Assembly (NCBI GenBank): GCA_021296345.1
Contig: JAGWAN010000003.1
Location: 78,841 to 142,840 of the forward strand
Source of the DNA: Acidimicrobiia bacterium
Lineage (GTDB): Bacteria; Actinomycetota; Acidimicrobiia; Spongiisociales; Spongiisociaceae
DNA: 64,000 bases
Reading direction: 5' to 3'
The first letter of the stretch is position 1. Each line of letters starts with the position of its first letter. The notes under the pieces are model-generated. The model searched no databases. It saw only the letters and a list, made by a program, of their open reading frames with translations, and was not told the DNA's origin. Position numbers and translations under genes: made by a program. This document shows, piece after piece, positions 11,223 to 56,331 of the stretch.

Positions 11223-12698
11223 TCACAGGAACCGTGCCAGGCGCTCGATTCCGGGGTGAATCGCCTCCAGATCGATAGCGGCGAACCCCAATTGGAAGTA
11301 GTGAGCAGGGCGGTCCGGTCTGAGGAAGCAGGATCGGCCCGGTTCGATCACCACCCCCACATCCAGCGCCTGCTCGGCTAGGGAGTCCGCGTCCAGATCC
11401 TCGGGGCCGGCCACCCACAAGCTCATCCCCCCGTCGGTGCCCGAGACCGGCCATGGAAACAGGTCGTCCACCGCCTCGGTGATGGCCTGCCACTTGGACC
11501 TGAGTACCCGGCGGTGCCTTCTGATCACCCTTCCGTAGTCACCGACCTCCATCATCAGGGCCGTTGTTCGCTGGATGATCCCCGGAGGATGCCTCAACAT
11601 GTGATGCCGCAAGCTGCGGAGATAGTCGACCAGGATGGGATCAGCCACCACGAACCCGAGCCTCAAGCCGGGGGCCAGGAACTTGGAGAAGCTCCCGACG
11701 TATACAACCCGACCTGCCGCGTCGAGGGCTTTGAGGGCCGGCTGAGGGCGTCGCGAGTAGCAGTACTCCGAGTCGTAGTCGTCCTCCACGATCAGCACGC
11801 CGTCCCTGCCGGCCTGAGCCAGGAGCCTTCGCCGGCGGCCGATCGTCATCGTCACGTTGGTAGGAAACTGGCGACCCGGGGTGAGGAACACCATGTCCAG
11901 CCCCGACAAGTCTTCGGGAACGGCCACGCCGTGGCCGTCGACCGGTAGCGGCACCAGCTTCGCCTCCTGCTTGAGGAAGATCCTCCGGGCGTCCGGATAG
12001 CCCGGATCCTCCACGCCCACCGTGGATCCGGCGCCGAGTAGCGCCTCCGCGACCAGATGGAGTCCGTGCTGGGTTCCCAACGTCACGAGGATCTGGTCAG
12101 ACGTAGCCGAGACACCGCGCGCCGGCAGGATGGTGCGCCGGATCTGTTCTACGAGGAGCGGGTCATCCTGATCGTCCAGGTTGTGGAGGCTGATACCTCT
12201 GTGTTCTTCACGCAACGCCGTGCGCATGGCCCTGGTCCAGGAACCGATCGGGAATCCCTCCGGACCAGGCCCGACGACGAACGGATAGGGGTAGGAACGC
12301 CAGCCGGCCGGCCGGGTCCGCTCAACCTCGCCGTCCGCCAGGGCGCCCAACCTCTCATCCCAGCGAACCCGGGGCAGGGTGTCTGATCCATCCCGATCCT
12401 GCCCGCCCGCATCGCCCTCACCGAGCCCTTCGTTCACCACATAGCCGACCCGTTCGATCGGCTCGACGAACCCCTCCACAGCCAGCTCGCGGTAGGCCCG
12501 GTTGACAGTGTTACGAGAGATGTCCAGGTGGTCGGCGAGCATCCGCGATGAGGGAAGCATCTCCCCCCCTGGCAGCTCCCCCCTCTCGATCGCCCGGGTC
12601 AGTCCGTCCTTGATACGGCGATAGCGCGGTGTCTTCGCCTCTTCGCTCAGGGAGTCGGAGAGGCGGGCCACAGTCGCGTAAAGCTGCTCAGACGTCAT
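11223..12698 (-). CDS. MocR-type regulator (GntR wHTH + class I aminotransferase fold)
   Basis: The protein has 491 residues. Residues about 20-95 are a GntR winged helix (RIKDGLTRAIERGELPGGEM, then SRNTVNRAYRELAVEGF). Residues about 130-490 are a fold type I aminotransferase domain with the PLP lysine in YVGSFSKFLAPGLRLGFV. MocR proteins use PLP to sense amino acids or amines and usually control a neighbouring gene, examples being PdxR, GabR and TauR. It is divergent from a class III aminotransferase with a 68-bp shared promoter, the arrangement seen for TauR with taurine-pyruvate aminotransferase and GabR with gabT. This makes regulation of that aminotransferase likely. Confidence 0.93.
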   Translation of the reverse strand: MTSEQLYATVARLSDSLSEEAKTPRYRRIKDGLTRAIERGELPGGEMLPSSRMLADHLDISRNTVNRAYRELAVEGFVEPIERVGYVVNEGLGEGDAGGQDRDGSDTLPRVRWDERLGALADGEVERTRPAGWRSYPYPFVVGPGPEGFPIGSWTRAMRTALREEHRGISLHNLDDQDDPLLVEQIRRTILPARGVSATSDQILVTLGTQHGLHLVAEALLGAGSTVGVEDPGYPDARRIFLKQEAKLVPLPVDGHGVAVPEDLSGLDMVFLTPGRQFPTNVTMTIGRRRRLLAQAGRDGVLIVEDDYDSEYCYSRRPQPALKALDAAGRVVYVGSFSKFLAPGLRLGFVVADPILVDYLRSLRHHMLRHPPGIIQRTTALMMEVGDYGRVIRRHRRVLRSKWQAITEAVDDLFPWPVSGTDGGMSLWVAGPEDLDADSLAEQALDVGVVIEPGRSCFLRPDRPAHYFQLGFAAIDLEAIHPGIERLARFL

Positions 12699-12766
12699 CG
12701 TTCACCGCCCTACCGATCGGCATTTTCACTCTACCCAAGCCCGGCGGGCAGGTAGACTTCCGCGGT

Positions 12767-14095
12767 ATGACGAACTCTCCTGATCTGAGCAACCTCCTGC
12801 CGTCCTTCACCAGCGCCAAGTACTGGCGCTCCGGAACCGTTCCTGTGTTCGCCCGTGGTGAGGGCTGTTACCTATGGGACCACGAGGGCAAGAAGTTCCT
12901 GGACACGCTGGCCGGGCTGTTCGTGGTCCAGATCGGGCACGGGAGGACCGACATCGCGAAGGCGATGAGTGAACAGGCCGAGCAGATTGCCTTCTTCCCC
13001 TCCTGGTCGGCCACCACTCCTATCACCCTCGAAGCCGCCTCGTTGATCACTGACTTGGCGCCCGGCGATCTGGACGCAGTGTTCTTCGTCAGTTCAGGCT
13101 CCGAGGCGAACGAGTCTGCTATCAAGTTCGCCCGCCAGTACCACCAGGCCGATGGCCGGCCCACCAAGACCGGCGTGATCTCCCGGGTCGACTCCTATCA
13201 CGGCACCAGCATGGGCGCACTCTCCGCCACCGGCTTGAAACCCGTCAGGGACCCTTTCCTGCCCCTCCTGCCAGGCTTCAGCCACGTGCCCAACACCCAC
13301 GGCTATTCGGATGGCGTGGAAGCCGCCCGGGTGGTCGAGGAGGAAATCCTGCGCCGGGGGCCGGAGCAGGTAGGCATGGTCATTGCCGAACCGGTCCAGA
13401 ACGGTGGTGGATCCCTGGTTCCTCCGGTGGGCTACTGGCGGGAGTTGCGTCGCATCTGCGACCGGTACGACGTGTTGCTGGTCGCTGACGAGGTGATCTG
13501 CGGGTTCGGGCGGCTCGGCGCCTGGTTCGGATCGGAGGTCGTGGACGCCCAACCCGACATGATCACGTTCGCCAAGGGCGCCACATCGGGCTACGCGCCG
13601 ATCGGCGGTCTTCTAGTGCGTCGACCGCTGGTCGACAGGGTCCTGGACTCGCCGGCCGGGAGCTTCCTGCACGGCGCAACGTGGGGTGGTCATCCGGTGG
13701 TCATGGCAGCCGCCGTCGCCAACATCGGCGCCATGCGGGACGAGAAGGTGATCGACAACGTCGTCCACCATGCGTCGCTGTTCGAGGCGCGCCTTGACAA
13801 TCTCGCAGAGGCGCACGATGCGGTGATGGATGTCCGGGGAACCGGCTACCTGTACGCACTCGCTCTCGGGCATAGCCGCGAGGAGGGACGGGAATACTCC
13901 GAAGAGGACACAAAGCGGGCCATCTACGAGCTTCTACCCCGGTTGGCCCTAGAAGCCGGCCTGCACCTCCGGGTCGACGACCGGGGCGGCGCCAAGATCA
14001 TGCTCTCTCCCCCACTCGTCGCCACCACGGACGATCTGGACGAGATGACCGAGCGCGTGTCGCAGGTCCTGGTTCAACTCGCCGCCTGCCTGTAG
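12767..14095 (+). CDS. Class III omega-aminotransferase (pyruvate-dependent type likely)
   Basis: The 442-residue, PLP-dependent fold type I enzyme shows SSGSEANESAIKFAR (phosphate binding), VLLVADEVICGFGRLG (Asp contacting the PLP nitrogen) and DMITFAKGATSGYAPIGG with the PLP lysine at about residue 270. The family includes taurine-pyruvate, beta-alanine-pyruvate and related transaminases. Alanine dehydrogenase 29 bp downstream would regenerate pyruvate from the alanine formed, which supports a pyruvate-dependent role. I chose the ATG at 12767; longer in-frame readings overlap the divergent regulator. The substrate cannot be fixed from sequence. Confidence 0.9.
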   Translation: MTNSPDLSNLLPSFTSAKYWRSGTVPVFARGEGCYLWDHEGKKFLDTLAGLFVVQIGHGRTDIAKAMSEQAEQIAFFPSWSATTPITLEAASLITDLAPGDLDAVFFVSSGSEANESAIKFARQYHQADGRPTKTGVISRVDSYHGTSMGALSATGLKPVRDPFLPLLPGFSHVPNTHGYSDGVEAARVVEEEILRRGPEQVGMVIAEPVQNGGGSLVPPVGYWRELRRICDRYDVLLVADEVICGFGRLGAWFGSEVVDAQPDMITFAKGATSGYAPIGGLLVRRPLVDRVLDSPAGSFLHGATWGGHPVVMAAAVANIGAMRDEKVIDNVVHHASLFEARLDNLAEAHDAVMDVRGTGYLYALALGHSREEGREYSEEDTKRAIYELLPRLALEAGLHLRVDDRGGAKIMLSPPLVATTDDLDEMTERVSQVLVQLAACL

Positions 14096-14124
14096 GGGGT
14101 CCGGCAAGACCATGGAGGGATCGC

Positions 14125-15210
14125 GTGAGGATCGGGATACCCACCGAAACCAAGCCGGATGAGCACCGGGTAGCTCTCACCCCGGCTGGCGCAGAAGCTC
14201 TGACCGGGTCCGGCCACCAGGTGCTGGTTCAGGAGAACGCCGGCCTGGGGTCGTACATCTCCGATAACGACTACGCCGCAGCGGGCGCCTACATCGTCGG
14301 CGCCGCCACCGATGTCTGGTCGAGCGCCGACTTGATCGTCAAGGTCAAGGAACCGCAGGAGGAAGAGCTGGCATACCTGTCGCGCGACCAGATCCTGTTC
14401 ACCTTCCTCCACCTGGTCGCCTATCCGAAAGTCGCCTCGGCGCTCTGTGAGTCAGGCACCACCTCGGTGGCGTACGAGACGGTGAAACTTCCCGGCGGCG
14501 CCCTACCCCTGCTGGCGCCGATGTCCCAGATAGCAGGTCGCATGGCCACCCAGGTCGGGGCCCGCTTTCTCGAGAAGTCGGGCGGAGGCCGGGGTGTGCT
14601 CATGGGTGGGGTTCCGGGTGTCGAGCCCGCCGAAGTGGTGGTGATCGGCGGCGGCATGGCCGGCGCCAACGCCCTCAGGGTGGCGGTGGGAATGGGCGCC
14701 AACGTCAAGGTCTTCGACCTGAACCCCGCGCGCCTGCGGGAGATCGACGACCTGTATCGCGGGGCGGTGACAACCCTGTTCGCCAATCAGGCCGACGTTC
14801 GAGCAGCCGCGCTCCAGGCGGACCTGGTCGTCGGGGCGGTCCTGTTGCCCGGCGCGCGGGCCCCGCGCGTCCTGACCGCCGAGGATGTCAGAGACATGAA
14901 GGCGGGCTCCGTGGTGGTCGACATCGCGATCGACCAGGGAGGCTGCTTCGAGACATCACGGGAGACCAGGCACTCCGACCCCACCTATCTGGTCGATGAT
15001 GTGGTGCACTATGCGGTCGGCAACATCCCCGGCGCGGTGCCCCGCACCGCCACCTTCGCTCTGGCCAACTCGACCATCCCGTATGTCCGGTTGCTGGCCG
15101 ATCATGGCGTCGACGCCGCCATCGAGCGGCGCCCGGAGCTGGGAGAGGGTCTCAACACCCGGAACGGCTCCGTCACCAACGAAACGGTGAGAAGAGCGCT
15201 CGATGGCTGA
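14125..15210 (+). CDS. ald: Alanine dehydrogenase
   Basis: The 361 residues match L-alanine dehydrogenase (usually about 370). Features are the N-terminal RIGIPTETKPDEHRVALTP, the catalytic lysine in LIVKVKEPQ, the catalytic histidine in FLHLVAYP, and the NAD-binding VVVIGGGMAGANAL (about 171-184). The C-terminal motif NIPGAVPRTATFAL is a strong family signature. It deaminates alanine to pyruvate and ammonia with NAD. The GTG start has a GGAGG-containing leader. Its position right after the aminotransferase suggests it recycles alanine to pyruvate for that reaction. Confidence 0.95.
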   Translation: MRIGIPTETKPDEHRVALTPAGAEALTGSGHQVLVQENAGLGSYISDNDYAAAGAYIVGAATDVWSSADLIVKVKEPQEEELAYLSRDQILFTFLHLVAYPKVASALCESGTTSVAYETVKLPGGALPLLAPMSQIAGRMATQVGARFLEKSGGGRGVLMGGVPGVEPAEVVVIGGGMAGANALRVAVGMGANVKVFDLNPARLREIDDLYRGAVTTLFANQADVRAAALQADLVVGAVLLPGARAPRVLTAEDVRDMKAGSVVVDIAIDQGGCFETSRETRHSDPTYLVDDVVHYAVGNIPGAVPRTATFALANSTIPYVRLLADHGVDAAIERRPELGEGLNTRNGSVTNETVRRALDG

Positions 15211-15222
15211 ACACGCGGCCCG

Positions 15223-17706
15223 ATGATGGATTCCATCCAGTCCATGATCACGTCGCCGCCGGAAGTTCCGTCGGGCAGAGCCCTTCCGGACCGGGTCCAG
15301 GTCGTGGTGGTCGGGGGCGGGATCGTCGGGTGCTCGATCGCCTACCACCTGGCCAGGCGGGGCATCACCGACGTACTGCTCCTGGAGCAGAACACCCTTA
15401 CAGGGGGGACCACCTGGCACGCGGCCGGCCTGGTGAGCCAGCTGAAGGCGAGCCACAGCCTCACCAAGCTCGCCACATACACGACCCGCCTGTTCGAGGA
15501 GCTGGAGGACGAGACCGGCCAATCCACCGGCTACCGCACCACGGGATCGATATCCGTGGCCTCGGACGAGGAGCGGTGGGAGGAGATCCTGCGCGGCATG
15601 TCGATGGCCAGGACATCCGGTGTCGAAATGGAGGTCATAGACCCCGAGCGGGCTCGAGAGATGTGGCCGTTGCTCCGCATCGACGACCTGGTGGGCACGG
15701 TCTTCATACCCGGCGACGGCCAGACAAGCCCGGTCGACACCACGATGGCGCTGGCCAAGGGCGCCAGGGATCGAGGCGTCACGATCCGCGAAGGAATCGC
15801 GGTGGAGCGGGTGCGTATCGAGAACGAGGCGGCGGTCGGGGTCGAGACCGAAGCAGGCTACGTGGAGGCGGAGACGGTGGTCCTCGCCTGCGGCATGTGG
15901 ACCCGCCAGCTGGCGGCAGCAGCAGGGGTGAACGTGCCCCTCCATCCATGCGAGCACTTCTATCTGGTGACCGAACCGCTCGACGGGATGCTGCCGGGAA
16001 TGCCCACCCTGCGAGACCCCACCAACTACACGTACTTCAAGGAGGAGACCGGCAAGCTGATGGCCGGGTTCTTCGAGCCGAAGGCCAAGACCTGGAAGTA
16101 CGAGGTTCCCAGGGACTTCGCCTTCGGCACCCTCGGAGAGGACTGGGACCACATCGGACCGATCTTCGAGAGGTCCATCCACCGCATTCCCGCCCTGGCC
16201 GAGTGCGGCATCCAGCTCTTCCTAAACGGACCCGAGGCCTTCACACCCGACGGCGTGTACTACCTGGGCGAGTCTCCGGAAGTGGAGAGCCTCTACGTGG
16301 CTGCCGGTTTCAACTCGGTGGGCATCCAGTCGGCCGGCGGGGCAGGATGGGTGCTGGCGGACTGGATCGCAGAGCAGCACCCCCCGATGGACCTGTCGGC
16401 GGTCGATCTCCGCCGGGCCTTCCCGTTCCAGGGGGAGAAGACCTACCTGGAGGACCGTATCTCGGAGAGCCTCGGGCTGCTGTACGCCATGCACTGGCCC
16501 TTCCGACAGTTCGAGTCGGCCCGAGACGTGTTCCGTTCGGTCCTCCATGACCGGCTGGCCGACCTGGGGGCAGTGTTCGGGGAGGTGGCGGGTTGGGAAC
16601 GACCCAACTGGTTCGCACCGGCGGACATGGAACGGGAATACCGGTATTCGTACGGCAAGCAGAACTGGTACCCGGCTTCCGCCGCCGAATGCGAGGCCAC
16701 CCGCGAGCGAGTGGCGCTGTACGACCAGTCCTCGTTTGCGAAGTTTCGCGTGCGGGGACCCGATGCCTTGGCCGTCCTGAATCGCATCGGGGGCGCGGAT
16801 GTGGATACGCCGGTCGGAAAGGTCGTCTACACGCAGTGGCTCAACGACCGGGGTGGCATCGAGGCCGACCTCACCGTCACCCGCACCGGGCCCCGGGAGT
16901 TCATGGTGGTGACGGGAGCTGCCGTGGCCAACCGGGACTATCACACCCTGAGACGGGCGCTGCGGGGCCATGACGCCGATCTGGCCGATATCACGATGGA
17001 ACTACCCACCATCGGGGTCATGGGCCCGCGCTCCCGGGCATTGCTGAGGGCCCTCACCGAGACTCCTCTCGACAACGAGTCCTTCCCGTTCGGATGGTCA
17101 CGGCAAATGACCGTGGCCGACATACCGGTGCGGGCTCTGCGGGTCAGCTACGTGGGCGAATTGGGATGGGAGCTCTACGTGGCCCGCGAAGCGGCGGTCG
17201 ATCTGTTCGACGCGGTGATGGAGGAGGGAAGGGCACACGGCATCCATCCCGCCGGGTACCACACCATGAACACCCTGCGCCTCGAAGCCGGTTACCGGCA
17301 TTGGGGCCACGACATCACCGATGAGGACACCCCTCTGGAGGCCGGATTGGGCTTCGCGGTGGCCTGGGACAAGGAAGGCGGCTTCCTGGGACGCCAAGCC
17401 CTCCTCGCCCAGCGGGCGGCAGCCCCGCTGCCCAAACGGCTGGTCCAATTCAAGCTGGAGGACCCGGAGGGCATCGTCTACCACGACGAACCGATCCACC
17501 GCAACGGCATCCTGGTTGGCCGCACCACCTCCGGAATGTACGGCCACACCTTCGGCGCCTGCCTGGCTATGGGCTACCTCAACAACGAAGCCGGTGTCAC
17601 CAGGGAGTGGATCGAATCGGGCTCCTTCGACATCGAGGTCGCCGGGGTCCCGATCCCGGCCACCGCCCAGTTACGCCCGTACTATTCAGCCCGGACTCGC
17701 ACCTGA
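15223..17706 (+). CDS. Dimethylglycine/sarcosine dehydrogenase-like FAD-GcvT oxidoreductase (copy 2)
   Basis: The 827-residue protein has the same two-part design as the 8.75-kb gene. Its FAD domain has VVVVGGGIVGCSIAYHLARRG and TTWHAAGLVSQL (histidine for covalent FAD at the usual place). Its C-terminal folate-binding GcvT domain includes SYVGELGWELYVAREAAVDL and AGYHTMNTLRLEAGYRHWG. This copy looks closer to classical DMGDH/SARDH than copy 1 (WHAAGL rather than WHAAGG). It starts 12 bp after ald, so it is probably in the same transcript as the aminotransferase and ald. Together they suggest demethylation of an N-methylated amine followed by transamination. That is inference. Confidence 0.88.
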   Translation: MMDSIQSMITSPPEVPSGRALPDRVQVVVVGGGIVGCSIAYHLARRGITDVLLLEQNTLTGGTTWHAAGLVSQLKASHSLTKLATYTTRLFEELEDETGQSTGYRTTGSISVASDEERWEEILRGMSMARTSGVEMEVIDPERAREMWPLLRIDDLVGTVFIPGDGQTSPVDTTMALAKGARDRGVTIREGIAVERVRIENEAAVGVETEAGYVEAETVVLACGMWTRQLAAAAGVNVPLHPCEHFYLVTEPLDGMLPGMPTLRDPTNYTYFKEETGKLMAGFFEPKAKTWKYEVPRDFAFGTLGEDWDHIGPIFERSIHRIPALAECGIQLFLNGPEAFTPDGVYYLGESPEVESLYVAAGFNSVGIQSAGGAGWVLADWIAEQHPPMDLSAVDLRRAFPFQGEKTYLEDRISESLGLLYAMHWPFRQFESARDVFRSVLHDRLADLGAVFGEVAGWERPNWFAPADMEREYRYSYGKQNWYPASAAECEATRERVALYDQSSFAKFRVRGPDALAVLNRIGGADVDTPVGKVVYTQWLNDRGGIEADLTVTRTGPREFMVVTGAAVANRDYHTLRRALRGHDADLADITMELPTIGVMGPRSRALLRALTETPLDNESFPFGWSRQMTVADIPVRALRVSYVGELGWELYVAREAAVDLFDAVMEEGRAHGIHPAGYHTMNTLRLEAGYRHWGHDITDEDTPLEAGLGFAVAWDKEGGFLGRQALLAQRAAAPLPKRLVQFKLEDPEGIVYHDEPIHRNGILVGRTTSGMYGHTFGACLAMGYLNNEAGVTREWIESGSFDIEVAGVPIPATAQLRPYYSARTRT

Positions 17707-17833: not shown

Positions 17834-19165
17834 ATGATCTGTAGTTTCTGCGGGACCCGGGCGGAAGAGGCCCGGAACCTCGTCCTAGGCGAGGCCGGCG
17901 CCGCCATCTGTGATGCCTGCGTGGACCTGGCGGTTGACCTGGTGCGCGAGCAGACCACGCCGATCGGCGACATGGTGCTGGACAACATCGGCGCCCTGGC
18001 TACCAACAATCGGCGGTTCCCGGGTTTGCTGGGCCTCGTAACCGATGCGGCGGTGGCGATCCGTGACGGCCGCGTGGTCTGGGCCGGGCCCTCGGAACGG
18101 ACACCCCAGGGGCTCCGGTCTCTCCCCAGCCTGGATTGCGGGGGTAGAGCGGTTCTCCCGGGACTGGTGGACGCCCACACCCATCTGGCGTTCGCGGGCG
18201 ACCGGAGCGAGGAGTTCGTGCTCAGGAGCACGGGCATGCCCGAAGCCCGAGCAGTTGCCCGCTCCGGCGGCGCCACCACGGCACGCCTCAACCACCTTGC
18301 GGATGCCTCCGGGATCGCTGACGTCATCAGCCGACGCCTGAACCGCATGCTCGACTTCGGCGTCACCACGGTCGAGGCGTCCGCCGGGTACTCGGAGGAA
18401 TACGAACGGGAGCTGGCCCTCCTCGACACGGTGGTCGAAGCGGGCCGGCGCCATGTGGTGGATCTGGTGCCCACGTTCGACGTGCCGGGGTTACCGGTGA
18501 CCGCATCCGACCGTTCGAGGGCTCTGGGGGAAGTGGCCGAGCACCACCTTCCCAGGGCGGTGAGGCTGGGAGCCGCGGTGCGGTTGTCACTCGGGGCCGA
18601 CGCCCTGACGACCGAGGAAGCACGCCGCCTCATCGAGGTCGCCACAGTCCACGGAGCCCGAACCCGGATTCACCATCCGGGCCAGTCCCCGGATGTGTAC
18701 AGGTTGGCATTGGAAGCCTCGGTCCCGGTGGTCGACCACGCCGGGTATCCCGACCGGGACCAGGCCGGGCAGATGGCCGAGAGGGGAGTCAGCGTGGTGA
18801 TCACCCCCACCGCAGTGCTGGGTACCCGCCGCTCCCCCGCTTCGCTTCGCAGGCTCATGGAAAGAGGCGTCCCGGTGGGACTCGGGACCGATTGCAGCCC
18901 GGCGCCGGTGATGGTCGAATCGCTCCCGCTCGCCATCACGCTCGCCGTCACCGAGATGGGACTTACGTCCGACCAAGCCATCTGGGCGGCGACGATGGGC
19001 AGTGCGCTAGCGCTGGGCTTGGGCGACCGCGGCTGGCTGGGCCCCGGCGCCGTGGCCGATCTGGTCGTTCTCGACGCTCCCAGCCCAACCCACCTTCCCT
19101 ACCGGCCAGGCACCAACCTGGTCTGGAAGGTGCTCAAGGCCGGTGAGGTGGTGGTCAGCAGATAG
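17834..19165 (+). CDS. Imidazolonepropionase-like amidohydrolase with N-terminal ClpX-type zinc finger
   Basis: Of 443 residues, the first about 45 are a ClpX C4 zinc-binding domain: Cys3, Cys6, Cys26 and Cys29 in CSFCG...ICDACVDLAVDLV. The remainder is an HutI-like amidohydrolase: VLPGLVDAHTHLAFAGDRSEEF (metal-binding HTH), VDHAGYPD, a TDCSP metal-ligand motif, and a C-terminal GAVADLVVLD. HutI opens the imidazolone ring in histidine degradation, but no other hut genes are nearby and the HutI HAEQ-type motif reads HHPGQ here. The fusion is continuous: both parts share one frame and the ATG sits directly before the zinc finger. An internal ATG at codon 46 lacks a ribosome-binding site. Confidence 0.8.
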   Translation: MICSFCGTRAEEARNLVLGEAGAAICDACVDLAVDLVREQTTPIGDMVLDNIGALATNNRRFPGLLGLVTDAAVAIRDGRVVWAGPSERTPQGLRSLPSLDCGGRAVLPGLVDAHTHLAFAGDRSEEFVLRSTGMPEARAVARSGGATTARLNHLADASGIADVISRRLNRMLDFGVTTVEASAGYSEEYERELALLDTVVEAGRRHVVDLVPTFDVPGLPVTASDRSRALGEVAEHHLPRAVRLGAAVRLSLGADALTTEEARRLIEVATVHGARTRIHHPGQSPDVYRLALEASVPVVDHAGYPDRDQAGQMAERGVSVVITPTAVLGTRRSPASLRRLMERGVPVGLGTDCSPAPVMVESLPLAITLAVTEMGLTSDQAIWAATMGSALALGLGDRGWLGPGAVADLVVLDAPSPTHLPYRPGTNLVWKVLKAGEVVVSR

Positions 19166-19205: not shown

Positions 19206-20024
19206 ATGTCCTTTCCCGTCGCGCTCGGGCACGAGCACCCCATCGCCATGGCGCACCGGGGATCCGGGTTGCTGTGGCCCGAGAACACGATGGTCGCCTT
19301 CCAGGGAGCGGTCGATCTCGGCTATCGATACCTGGAGACCGACCTTCAGATCACCCGGGACGGCATGCTGGTCACCATCCACGACGATACGGTCGACCGC
19401 ACCACCGATAGCACCGGCTTCGTGTCGGACTACTCCCTGGAAGATCTCCGGACACTCGACGCCGGCTACCGGTTCGAGCGCGACGGCGACCACCCCCACC
19501 GAGGACAGGGGATCCAGGTACCCACGCTCGAAGAACTAGTCCTCACCTATCCGGACGGAGTTTTCACCCTCGACCTGAAGAGCGACGGCATGGAGACGGC
19601 CCTGGTAGACCTCATCCGCCGCCTCGACCTGTGGGATCGGGTGGTCATCGGTTCGTTCAGCGGGTCCCGCCTGCGCCGGTTCCGGAAGCTCGTCGACCGC
19701 CCGGTGGCAACCTCGGCCGGCCCCTCAGAGATTCTCCGGTTCTTGGCCGCGACGCGGACTCACCTGCCGCACCGGCCCCGAGCCGACTCCTTCCAAGTGC
19801 CCGTCAAGGATCACGGGATCACCATCGTCAACGCCCGGACAATCCGAGCCGCCAAGAAGCTGAAGGTTCCGTTAATAGTATGGACCGTCAACCACCCGGC
19901 TGAGATGGAGAGTCTGCTGGACCTGGGAGTCGACGGACTCATCACCGACCGTCCGGACCTGCTTCGGACCCTCCTGGCTGAACGCAGCCGGAACACGAAT
20001 CGGAAGGAACCACATGATGGGTGA
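19206..20024 (+). CDS. Glycerophosphodiester phosphodiesterase
   Basis: The 272-residue GDPD TIM barrel has the signature AMAHRGSGLLWPENTMVAF (catalytic His, Arg, Glu), YLETDLQITRDGMLVTIHDD (Glu and Asp metal ligands, second catalytic His), and TLDLKSDG (third metal-binding region). It hydrolyses glycerophosphodiesters to glycerol-3-phosphate and an alcohol. No signal peptide, so it is cytoplasmic, as in UgpQ. The stop overlaps the start of the next gene by 11 bp, implying coupling. Confidence 0.92.
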   Translation: MSFPVALGHEHPIAMAHRGSGLLWPENTMVAFQGAVDLGYRYLETDLQITRDGMLVTIHDDTVDRTTDSTGFVSDYSLEDLRTLDAGYRFERDGDHPHRGQGIQVPTLEELVLTYPDGVFTLDLKSDGMETALVDLIRRLDLWDRVVIGSFSGSRLRRFRKLVDRPVATSAGPSEILRFLAATRTHLPHRPRADSFQVPVKDHGITIVNARTIRAAKKLKVPLIVWTVNHPAEMESLLDLGVDGLITDRPDLLRTLLAERSRNTNRKEPHDG

Positions 20025-20595
20025 CTGGGTAGAGGTCGGGGAAGTCGTCAAGCTCCAGATCCACCGGCGACACCAGCGTGACGGTGAGAAATACCGGCTC
20101 GATCCCCTTGCCGAGGTGTCGACCTTGCGGCTCACCGCTGGCGGGCCGATCGGTTTCGACGGCGCCTCGTGGATCGTGGACTGCCACCACCGCTATCACC
20201 CACAGGCCACCACCCACCGCCCGGCCCGGGCCCTCTCGATCGGATTCACCGCCCACTACGAGGACATCTGGAAGCGGTTCACGCCGATCCCGCTCGGCGC
20301 GGGCGGTGAGAACCTGATCGTCTCCAGCGATGAGGTGATCTCCGAAGCCGAACTGGGTGGAGGGATCCGCATCGGACCTCCCCAGGCTTCGATCCTGGTT
20401 TCGGACGCCAAGGTGGCAGAACCGTGCGTGGCCTTCACGCGTCTGGTGACCGGTCGCTCCGAAGCATCGGCCCACGATCTGGCAGAGGATCGGGAGTATC
20501 TCCGTCGCGGGATCAGAGGCTTCGTCATGCCCCTTGACGGGATCGAACTGTTTGACGTGGTACCCGGCGCGCCGGTTGCGATCCGCGCCGCCTGA
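20014..20595 (+). CDS. MOSC-domain-like protein
   Basis: The 193 residues show a C-terminal pattern typical of MOSC beta-barrel proteins: GGGIRIGPPQASILVSDAKV, an isolated cysteine in AEPCVAFTRLV (position of the sulfur-carrying Cys), then RRGIRGFVMPLDG and a final VVPGAPVAI. MOSC domains bind or transfer sulfur, often with molybdenum enzymes. The assignment is by pattern and is moderate. It overlaps the GDPD gene, with GGAAGGAA before the first ATG; the second codon is also ATG. Confidence 0.6.
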   Translation: MMGDWVEVGEVVKLQIHRRHQRDGEKYRLDPLAEVSTLRLTAGGPIGFDGASWIVDCHHRYHPQATTHRPARALSIGFTAHYEDIWKRFTPIPLGAGGENLIVSSDEVISEAELGGGIRIGPPQASILVSDAKVAEPCVAFTRLVTGRSEASAHDLAEDREYLRRGIRGFVMPLDGIELFDVVPGAPVAIRAA

Positions 20596-56005: not shown

Positions 56006-56331
56006 CACACCCGTTCGATGGTCGCCCACAAGGCGTAGCGATGCAAGGTGTAGCAATCGATCTCCGCCTTCTCGCGCGGCGCGGTGTTGACGATCGAACG
56101 GCCCTCGTGATGCACCTCGAGCATCAGCCGGGTCGCCTTGTCCTCCGAGTACCCGAAGACCCGGCGAAACACCAGCACCACGTAGGACATGAGGTTCACA
56201 GGATCGTTCCAGACCACCACGTTCCAACCCCGATCATGGTCGGGCCGATCTTCCACCTCCGGGGCATCGGTCCGCTCGGGCGCGATGGTGGCAGCCGGCA
56301 ACCCCGCGGACCTCGGCCTGATCGGATTCAT
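56005..56331 (-). CDS. clpS: ATP-dependent Clp protease adaptor ClpS
   Basis: The 108 residues have a flexible N-terminal extension and the ClpS core at about 35-108: WNVVVWNDPVNLMSYVVLVFRRVFGYSEDKATRLMLEVHHEGRSIV, including the NDP(V)N N-degron-binding motif and HxEG. ClpS presents N-end-rule substrates to ClpAP or ClpCP. Start at MNPIRPRS; the open frame extends 18 codons upstream without support. Confidence 0.93.
   Translation of the reverse strand: MNPIRPRSAGLPAATIAPERTDAPEVEDRPDHDRGWNVVVWNDPVNLMSYVVLVFRRVFGYSEDKATRLMLEVHHEGRSIVNTAPREKAEIDCYTLHRYALWATIERV

Follow-up and report, generated by a model that had tools for sequence, protein, structure and literature searches.

A ClpX-type zinc finger fused to a HutI-derived amidohydrolase body in one order of Acidimicrobiia

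The window, the whole stretch of 64,000 nucleotides that was analyzed, carries on its forward strand an open reading frame (positions 17834 to 19165) that starts with ATG and encodes a protein of 443 amino acids beginning MICSFCGTRAEEARNLVLGEAGAAICDACVDLAVDLVREQ. Examination of the frame, Pfam and NCBIfam searches and orthologues identified this gene as a ClpX-type zinc finger joined to a HutI-derived amidohydrolase; an earlier note, made from the sequence alone, had already placed both parts in one frame. The ClpX C4-type finger occupies residues 3 to 39 (17840 to 17950, forward strand, as for all features of the gene), with cysteines at residues 3, 6, 26 and 29, and was delimited by PF06689, its invariant cysteines and dN/dS. 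It is followed by a short linker at about residues 40 to 46 (17951 to 17971), predicted to be flexible from pLDDT and dN/dS values, and by a body with the HutI fold (residues 47 to 443; 17972 to 19162), consisting of a composite domain and a TIM barrel and recognized by TIGR01224 and Foldseek. The internal ATG of the frame, at 17972, is the first codon of this body. Modelling, which the earlier note had proposed, gave an AlphaFold structure with a mean pLDDT of 86.6 in which both the finger and the HutI barrel were folded and residues 38 to 43 had a pLDDT below 50; the finger is predicted to be a separate domain tethered by a short flexible linker.

Downstream on the same strand are genes for a glycerophosphodiester phosphodiesterase (GDPD; 19206 to 20024), assigned by PF03009 and synteny, and for a MOSC-like protein (20014 to 20595), assigned by synteny and a Pfam MOSC match just below the cut-off. 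Throughout the order, GDPD adjoins hutI genes both with and without the finger, and the arrangement MOSC-GDPD-hutI was also present at a finger-less hut operon (L112). Genes for HutU and HutH were not present near the window gene. Elsewhere in the window (11223 to 17706), a MocR-like regulator, a class III aminotransferase, an alanine dehydrogenase and a DAO-GcvT protein, the last two checked by Pfam, lie in a row that we take to resemble a taurine-degradation set (tauR-tpa-ald).

The assignment of the four-cysteine module to the ClpX zinc-binding type was borne out by Pfam, zf-C4_ClpX (PF06689) scoring 43 to 48.5 bits over residues 3 to 39 against a cut-off of 27, with the higher value obtained when the first 49 residues were the query; the finger has the CxxC...CxxC arrangement of the family. 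In a phmmer search of PDB chains, the finger matched ClpX zinc domains only (E. coli 1ovx, E value of 5.6e-8). The protein is not a ClpX, in which the zinc domain is followed by the AAA+ ATPase domain and the ClpX C-terminal domain: residues 2 to 42 alone matched TIGR00382 / NF003745, at 25 to 31 bits versus 359 to 371. The likeness to the ClpX domain (PDB 1ovx, 2ds5) consists of an N-terminal C4 domain, the CSFCG...ICDxC motifs and a following helix, whereas the window protein has no AAA+ domain and bears the finger on a TIM-barrel body. The four cysteines were invariant across 24 aligned fingered proteins. All the fused fingers had a C-x19-C spacing, compared with C-x18-C in ClpX of the same order, the extra residue lying before the third cysteine in every member. 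In addition, the VYICDEC motif of ClpX, a region nearly constant in ClpX of the same genomes, was replaced by mostly VAIC- or VGIC-type motifs, with the Tyr changed.

A full-length protein was found in 9 of the 10 genomes of the genus, including that of the window, the other eight copies being 88 to 91% identical, and in three further genomes of the family at 55 to 58% identity. The remaining genome of the genus (G027, 2.3 Mb), which is its smallest, lacks the fingered gene and keeps a gene that has the length of ClpX and a finger of the ClpX type. Across nine orthologues, dN/dS was 0.083 for residues 2 to 38, 0.20 for residues 39 to 46 and 0.142 for the body, where it peaked at about 0.3 in the barrel. 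Purifying selection thus acts more strongly on the finger than on the body, and translation and protein-level selection must include the upstream part. These data bear on the possibility that an indel or assembly artefact joined two genes and that the true start is the ATG at 17972; the earlier note had named as refuting outcomes an indel artefact of this kind and finger-less homologues that start at the internal ATG. No clear Shine-Dalgarno sequence was detected before 17834, and in one relative (L058, the same gene in L007) some 17 bases upstream of position 1501 are duplicated in tandem, which shifts the original ATG into another frame and would make a CTG start necessary; both observations are in keeping with an internal start. 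Against this, the orthologues read straight through, conservation of the open frame and the four cysteines extends across genomes from four families, and ATG, GTG or TTG codons lie just upstream of the finger in relatives. Near homologues retain the finger, and the finger-less relatives, at 38 to 45% identity, form a separate set. On the strength of the orthologues and the dN/dS of the finger, an artefact or internal start was rejected for this clade as extremely improbable.

The remainder of the protein after the finger matched amidohydrolase families in Pfam, and its best matches among solved structures were to HutI (2bb0/2g3f). The same structures were the top Foldseek matches of the body model, 2g3f being the best (TM score of 0.78 to 0.84). 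TIGR01224 (HutI) matched residues 70 to 439 at 223 bits, below the equivalog cut-off of 298. HutI positions were checked by residue letter in an alignment to the B. subtilis enzyme (2bb0). His80, His82, His249, His272 and Asp324 (B. subtilis numbering), the metal-site residues of the B. subtilis enzyme, are all retained in the window clade. The HxH pair corresponds to His115 and His117 of the window protein (18176 to 18184) and is invariant in alignment A3, while His249 and Asp324 correspond to His280 (18671 to 18673) and Asp353 (18890 to 18892). The substrate-contact residues of HutI are Tyr102, His185, Glu252 and Asn326; their equivalents in the window protein are Glu, Gly, Gly (a few residues after His280) and Ser. 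The protein also retains an Arg and a Tyr from the HutI pocket. As the score is below the HutI cut-off and the substrate-contact positions are lost, the window protein is unlikely to be an imidazolonepropionase; with the metal site kept and the contacts lost, it would probably be an amidohydrolase whose substrate has changed or been lost. The label of catabolic enzyme applied in the earlier note does not, therefore, fit this body, which lacks the HutI-specific substrate residues and has related members that appear to be pseudoenzymes.

The absence of a hut operon, as noted previously, holds for the window but not for the genome, in which another contig (C72) carries HutH, HutU and a finger-less HutI-like gene; histidine degradation does not, therefore, obviously need the window gene. 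The finger-less HutI-like set to which this gene belongs (G000:C72:23704-24849, L095; also L206 to L211, L213 and L214), found in this and related genomes, keeps the pocket motifs and has Asn at the Asp324 position (ASNCNPG/ATNCNPG). To judge from these alignments, this genome may not have a HutI with every canonical residue. With respect to Clp components, the best ClpX-finger match in the genome was a 422-amino-acid frame of ClpX length on contig C49, and the clpS gene reported elsewhere in the window was located at about 56032 to 56235 on the reverse strand. No SspB was detected in the genome.

A search for the same architecture in Acidimicrobiia, as proposed in the earlier note, was performed with a profile comprising the finger and the first part of the HutI body (the composite domain). 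Among the matches listed, a fused gene was carried by 40 of the 138 genomes sampled for the order, distributed over four families (12/15 in f1, the family of the window; 6/7 in f2; 5/5 in f3; 17/34 in f8). No fusion was found among the matches listed for 257 genomes of the class that lie outside the order or for a sample of the phylum outside the window's own genome, and a wide distribution was, therefore, rejected. Fused genes scored 138 to 183 bits and finger-less HutI genes no more than 113 bits; only very diverged fusions could be hidden, as all known fused matches ranked first. Of 686 matches to plasmid records, the five listed were all HutI-like; they begin at query residue 45 or later and so are finger-less. 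Two HutI relatives with long N-terminal extensions (L196 and L197) were rejected as fingered members because no finger was present. The named fingered relatives are Acidimicrobiia, and in the genomes sampled the architecture is restricted to one order. The arrangement is not due to chance, since it recurs in 40 genomes and the finger is under codon-level purifying selection.

When a tree was computed from an alignment stripped of its finger columns, one change sufficed for the fingered rows (85/90), and the finger-less outgroups fell on the other side. Some of the fingered proteins, termed class C below, have long branches that make their exact placement unsure; when these rows were left out, two changes were needed and a single change occurred in 39% of bootstrap trees, such that a single origin of the fusion is likely at most. 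One source is also favored by the C-x19-C spacing of all fused fingers and their mostly VAIC- or VGIC-type motifs. A small standalone finger protein of the x19 type (L193, a 113-amino-acid frame, CSFCGAGPDLVQATVRGPGGVAICDGC) was observed in another actinobacterium, and a protein of this type is a possible source of the fused finger.

Alignment of the fingered proteins to B. subtilis HutI distinguished three classes, in all of which the four finger cysteines are invariant. Class A (f3 and genera g47 and g51 of f8) has all the HutI residues, with a common Glu252-to-Gln variant, scores 404 to 427 bits with TIGR01224 and lies beside HutU and HutH. Class B (the window family f1 and genus g6 of f2) keeps the metal ligands, is changed at positions 102, 185, 252 and 326 and scores 223 to 283 bits. 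In class C (f8 and genus g5 of f2), the metal ligands are largely lost, the stretch after the HxH site is deleted and the score falls to 61 to 98 bits in the three proteins tested; these proteins, pseudoenzymes without a metal site as judged by the alignment, keep the finger and the motifs around 'TND', 'PGFVD' and 'W-ATRGGALAL'. A location beside LeuC/LeuD and GDPD is common to class A and most class C genes. Among class C proteins, identity was 0.44 in the finger versus 0.26 in the barrel. Between divergent classes, identity was 0.32 to 0.48 in the finger, no higher than the 0.45 to 0.52 of the N-terminal composite domain; the finger is, therefore, not uniquely conserved, and the scaffold of the body also matters.

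Related species retained the finger even where the active site decayed, and it therefore probably has a job of its own. The ClpX zinc domain is a dimerization and adaptor-docking domain (PMC7647994; see also the titles of Wojtyra 2003 and Park 2007 as cited in PMC12383707). The finger might thus pair with the zinc domain of ClpX or take its adaptors, the body being a ClpXP substrate, adaptor or anti-adaptor. Clear homology of the two fingers, the presence of ClpX in the genome and the retention of the finger in pseudoenzymes, as expected of an adaptor, agree with such a tether or decoy, yet the extra residue before the third cysteine, the replaced Tyr of a motif that same-genome ClpX keeps nearly constant and the lack of a detectable SspB argue against it. 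Furthermore, the ClpX-type finger is not Clp-specific, as an HTH-like protein and sigma factors of cyanobacteria (PMC11119718) carry it too. In these and other non-ClpX proteins the finger is likewise an add-on module, though its partner domains are DNA-binding-like or Clp_N rather than of the metabolic-enzyme type seen here; the examples observed were an HTH-like protein and a finger ahead of a Clp_N domain (both L090), a small protein with an N-terminal extension (L190) and L193. We regard a Clp tether or decoy as unlikely; a Clp partner is possible, but the altered loop and the presence of such fingers on non-Clp proteins weaken the case. We consider it similarly unlikely that the finger merely stabilizes or dimerizes the enzyme and that the window protein works as a metal-dependent amidohydrolase on a new small-molecule substrate. 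The full set of metal ligands, the retained Arg and Tyr and the predicted HutI fold are in favor of this possibility, but it leaves the finger of class C unexplained, and the neighbors beyond GDPD and MOSC suggest no substrate. More doubtful than either is the proposal that this hutI-derived family, some members being without a catalytic metal site, engages ClpX or its partners via the finger and serves regulated proteolysis as an adaptor or anti-adaptor that senses metabolites.

The explanation we favor, with a probability of roughly 0.55, is that the gene used to be a hutI, that a finger became fused to its N terminus and that this finger is a binding module that has outlived catalysis. The joining, probably a single event in one order of Acidimicrobiia, would date from a time when the gene lay in a hut operon and encoded a functional imidazolonepropionase, and in some lineages the fingered protein would still be a canonical HutI. 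In the window lineage, the gene would have outlasted hutU and hutH at its old locus by GDPD and MOSC, keeping the metal site and losing the HutI substrate contacts, while in other lineages the metal site would have gone and the finger and parts of the body been retained. By analogy with ClpX, the finger is most likely a protein-protein interaction or dimerization module, and dimerization or docking is its likely role. As the finger and parts of the body were kept despite loss of the metal site, the conserved function would seem to lie in whatever the finger binds, the body serving as a scaffold or ligand sensor.

The fusion is real and conserved and, within the openly licensed literature, apparently undescribed. 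The earlier note knew of no described example, and searches of this literature for 'ClpX C4-type zinc finger' with amidohydrolase or for 'ClpX-type zinc finger' returned nothing, those for imidazolonepropionase with zinc finger nothing relevant, and those for zf-C4_ClpX sigma factors only. The canonical enzyme, an enzyme with a changed pocket and a putative pseudoenzyme, each with the finger, form a natural series, partly at one chromosomal locus, from which one can read what a ClpX-type finger does in proteins other than ClpX. Binding to ClpX or its adaptors would make the finger a novel link between metabolism and proteolysis; a role in dimerization alone would show the ClpX-type domain to be a general-purpose part.
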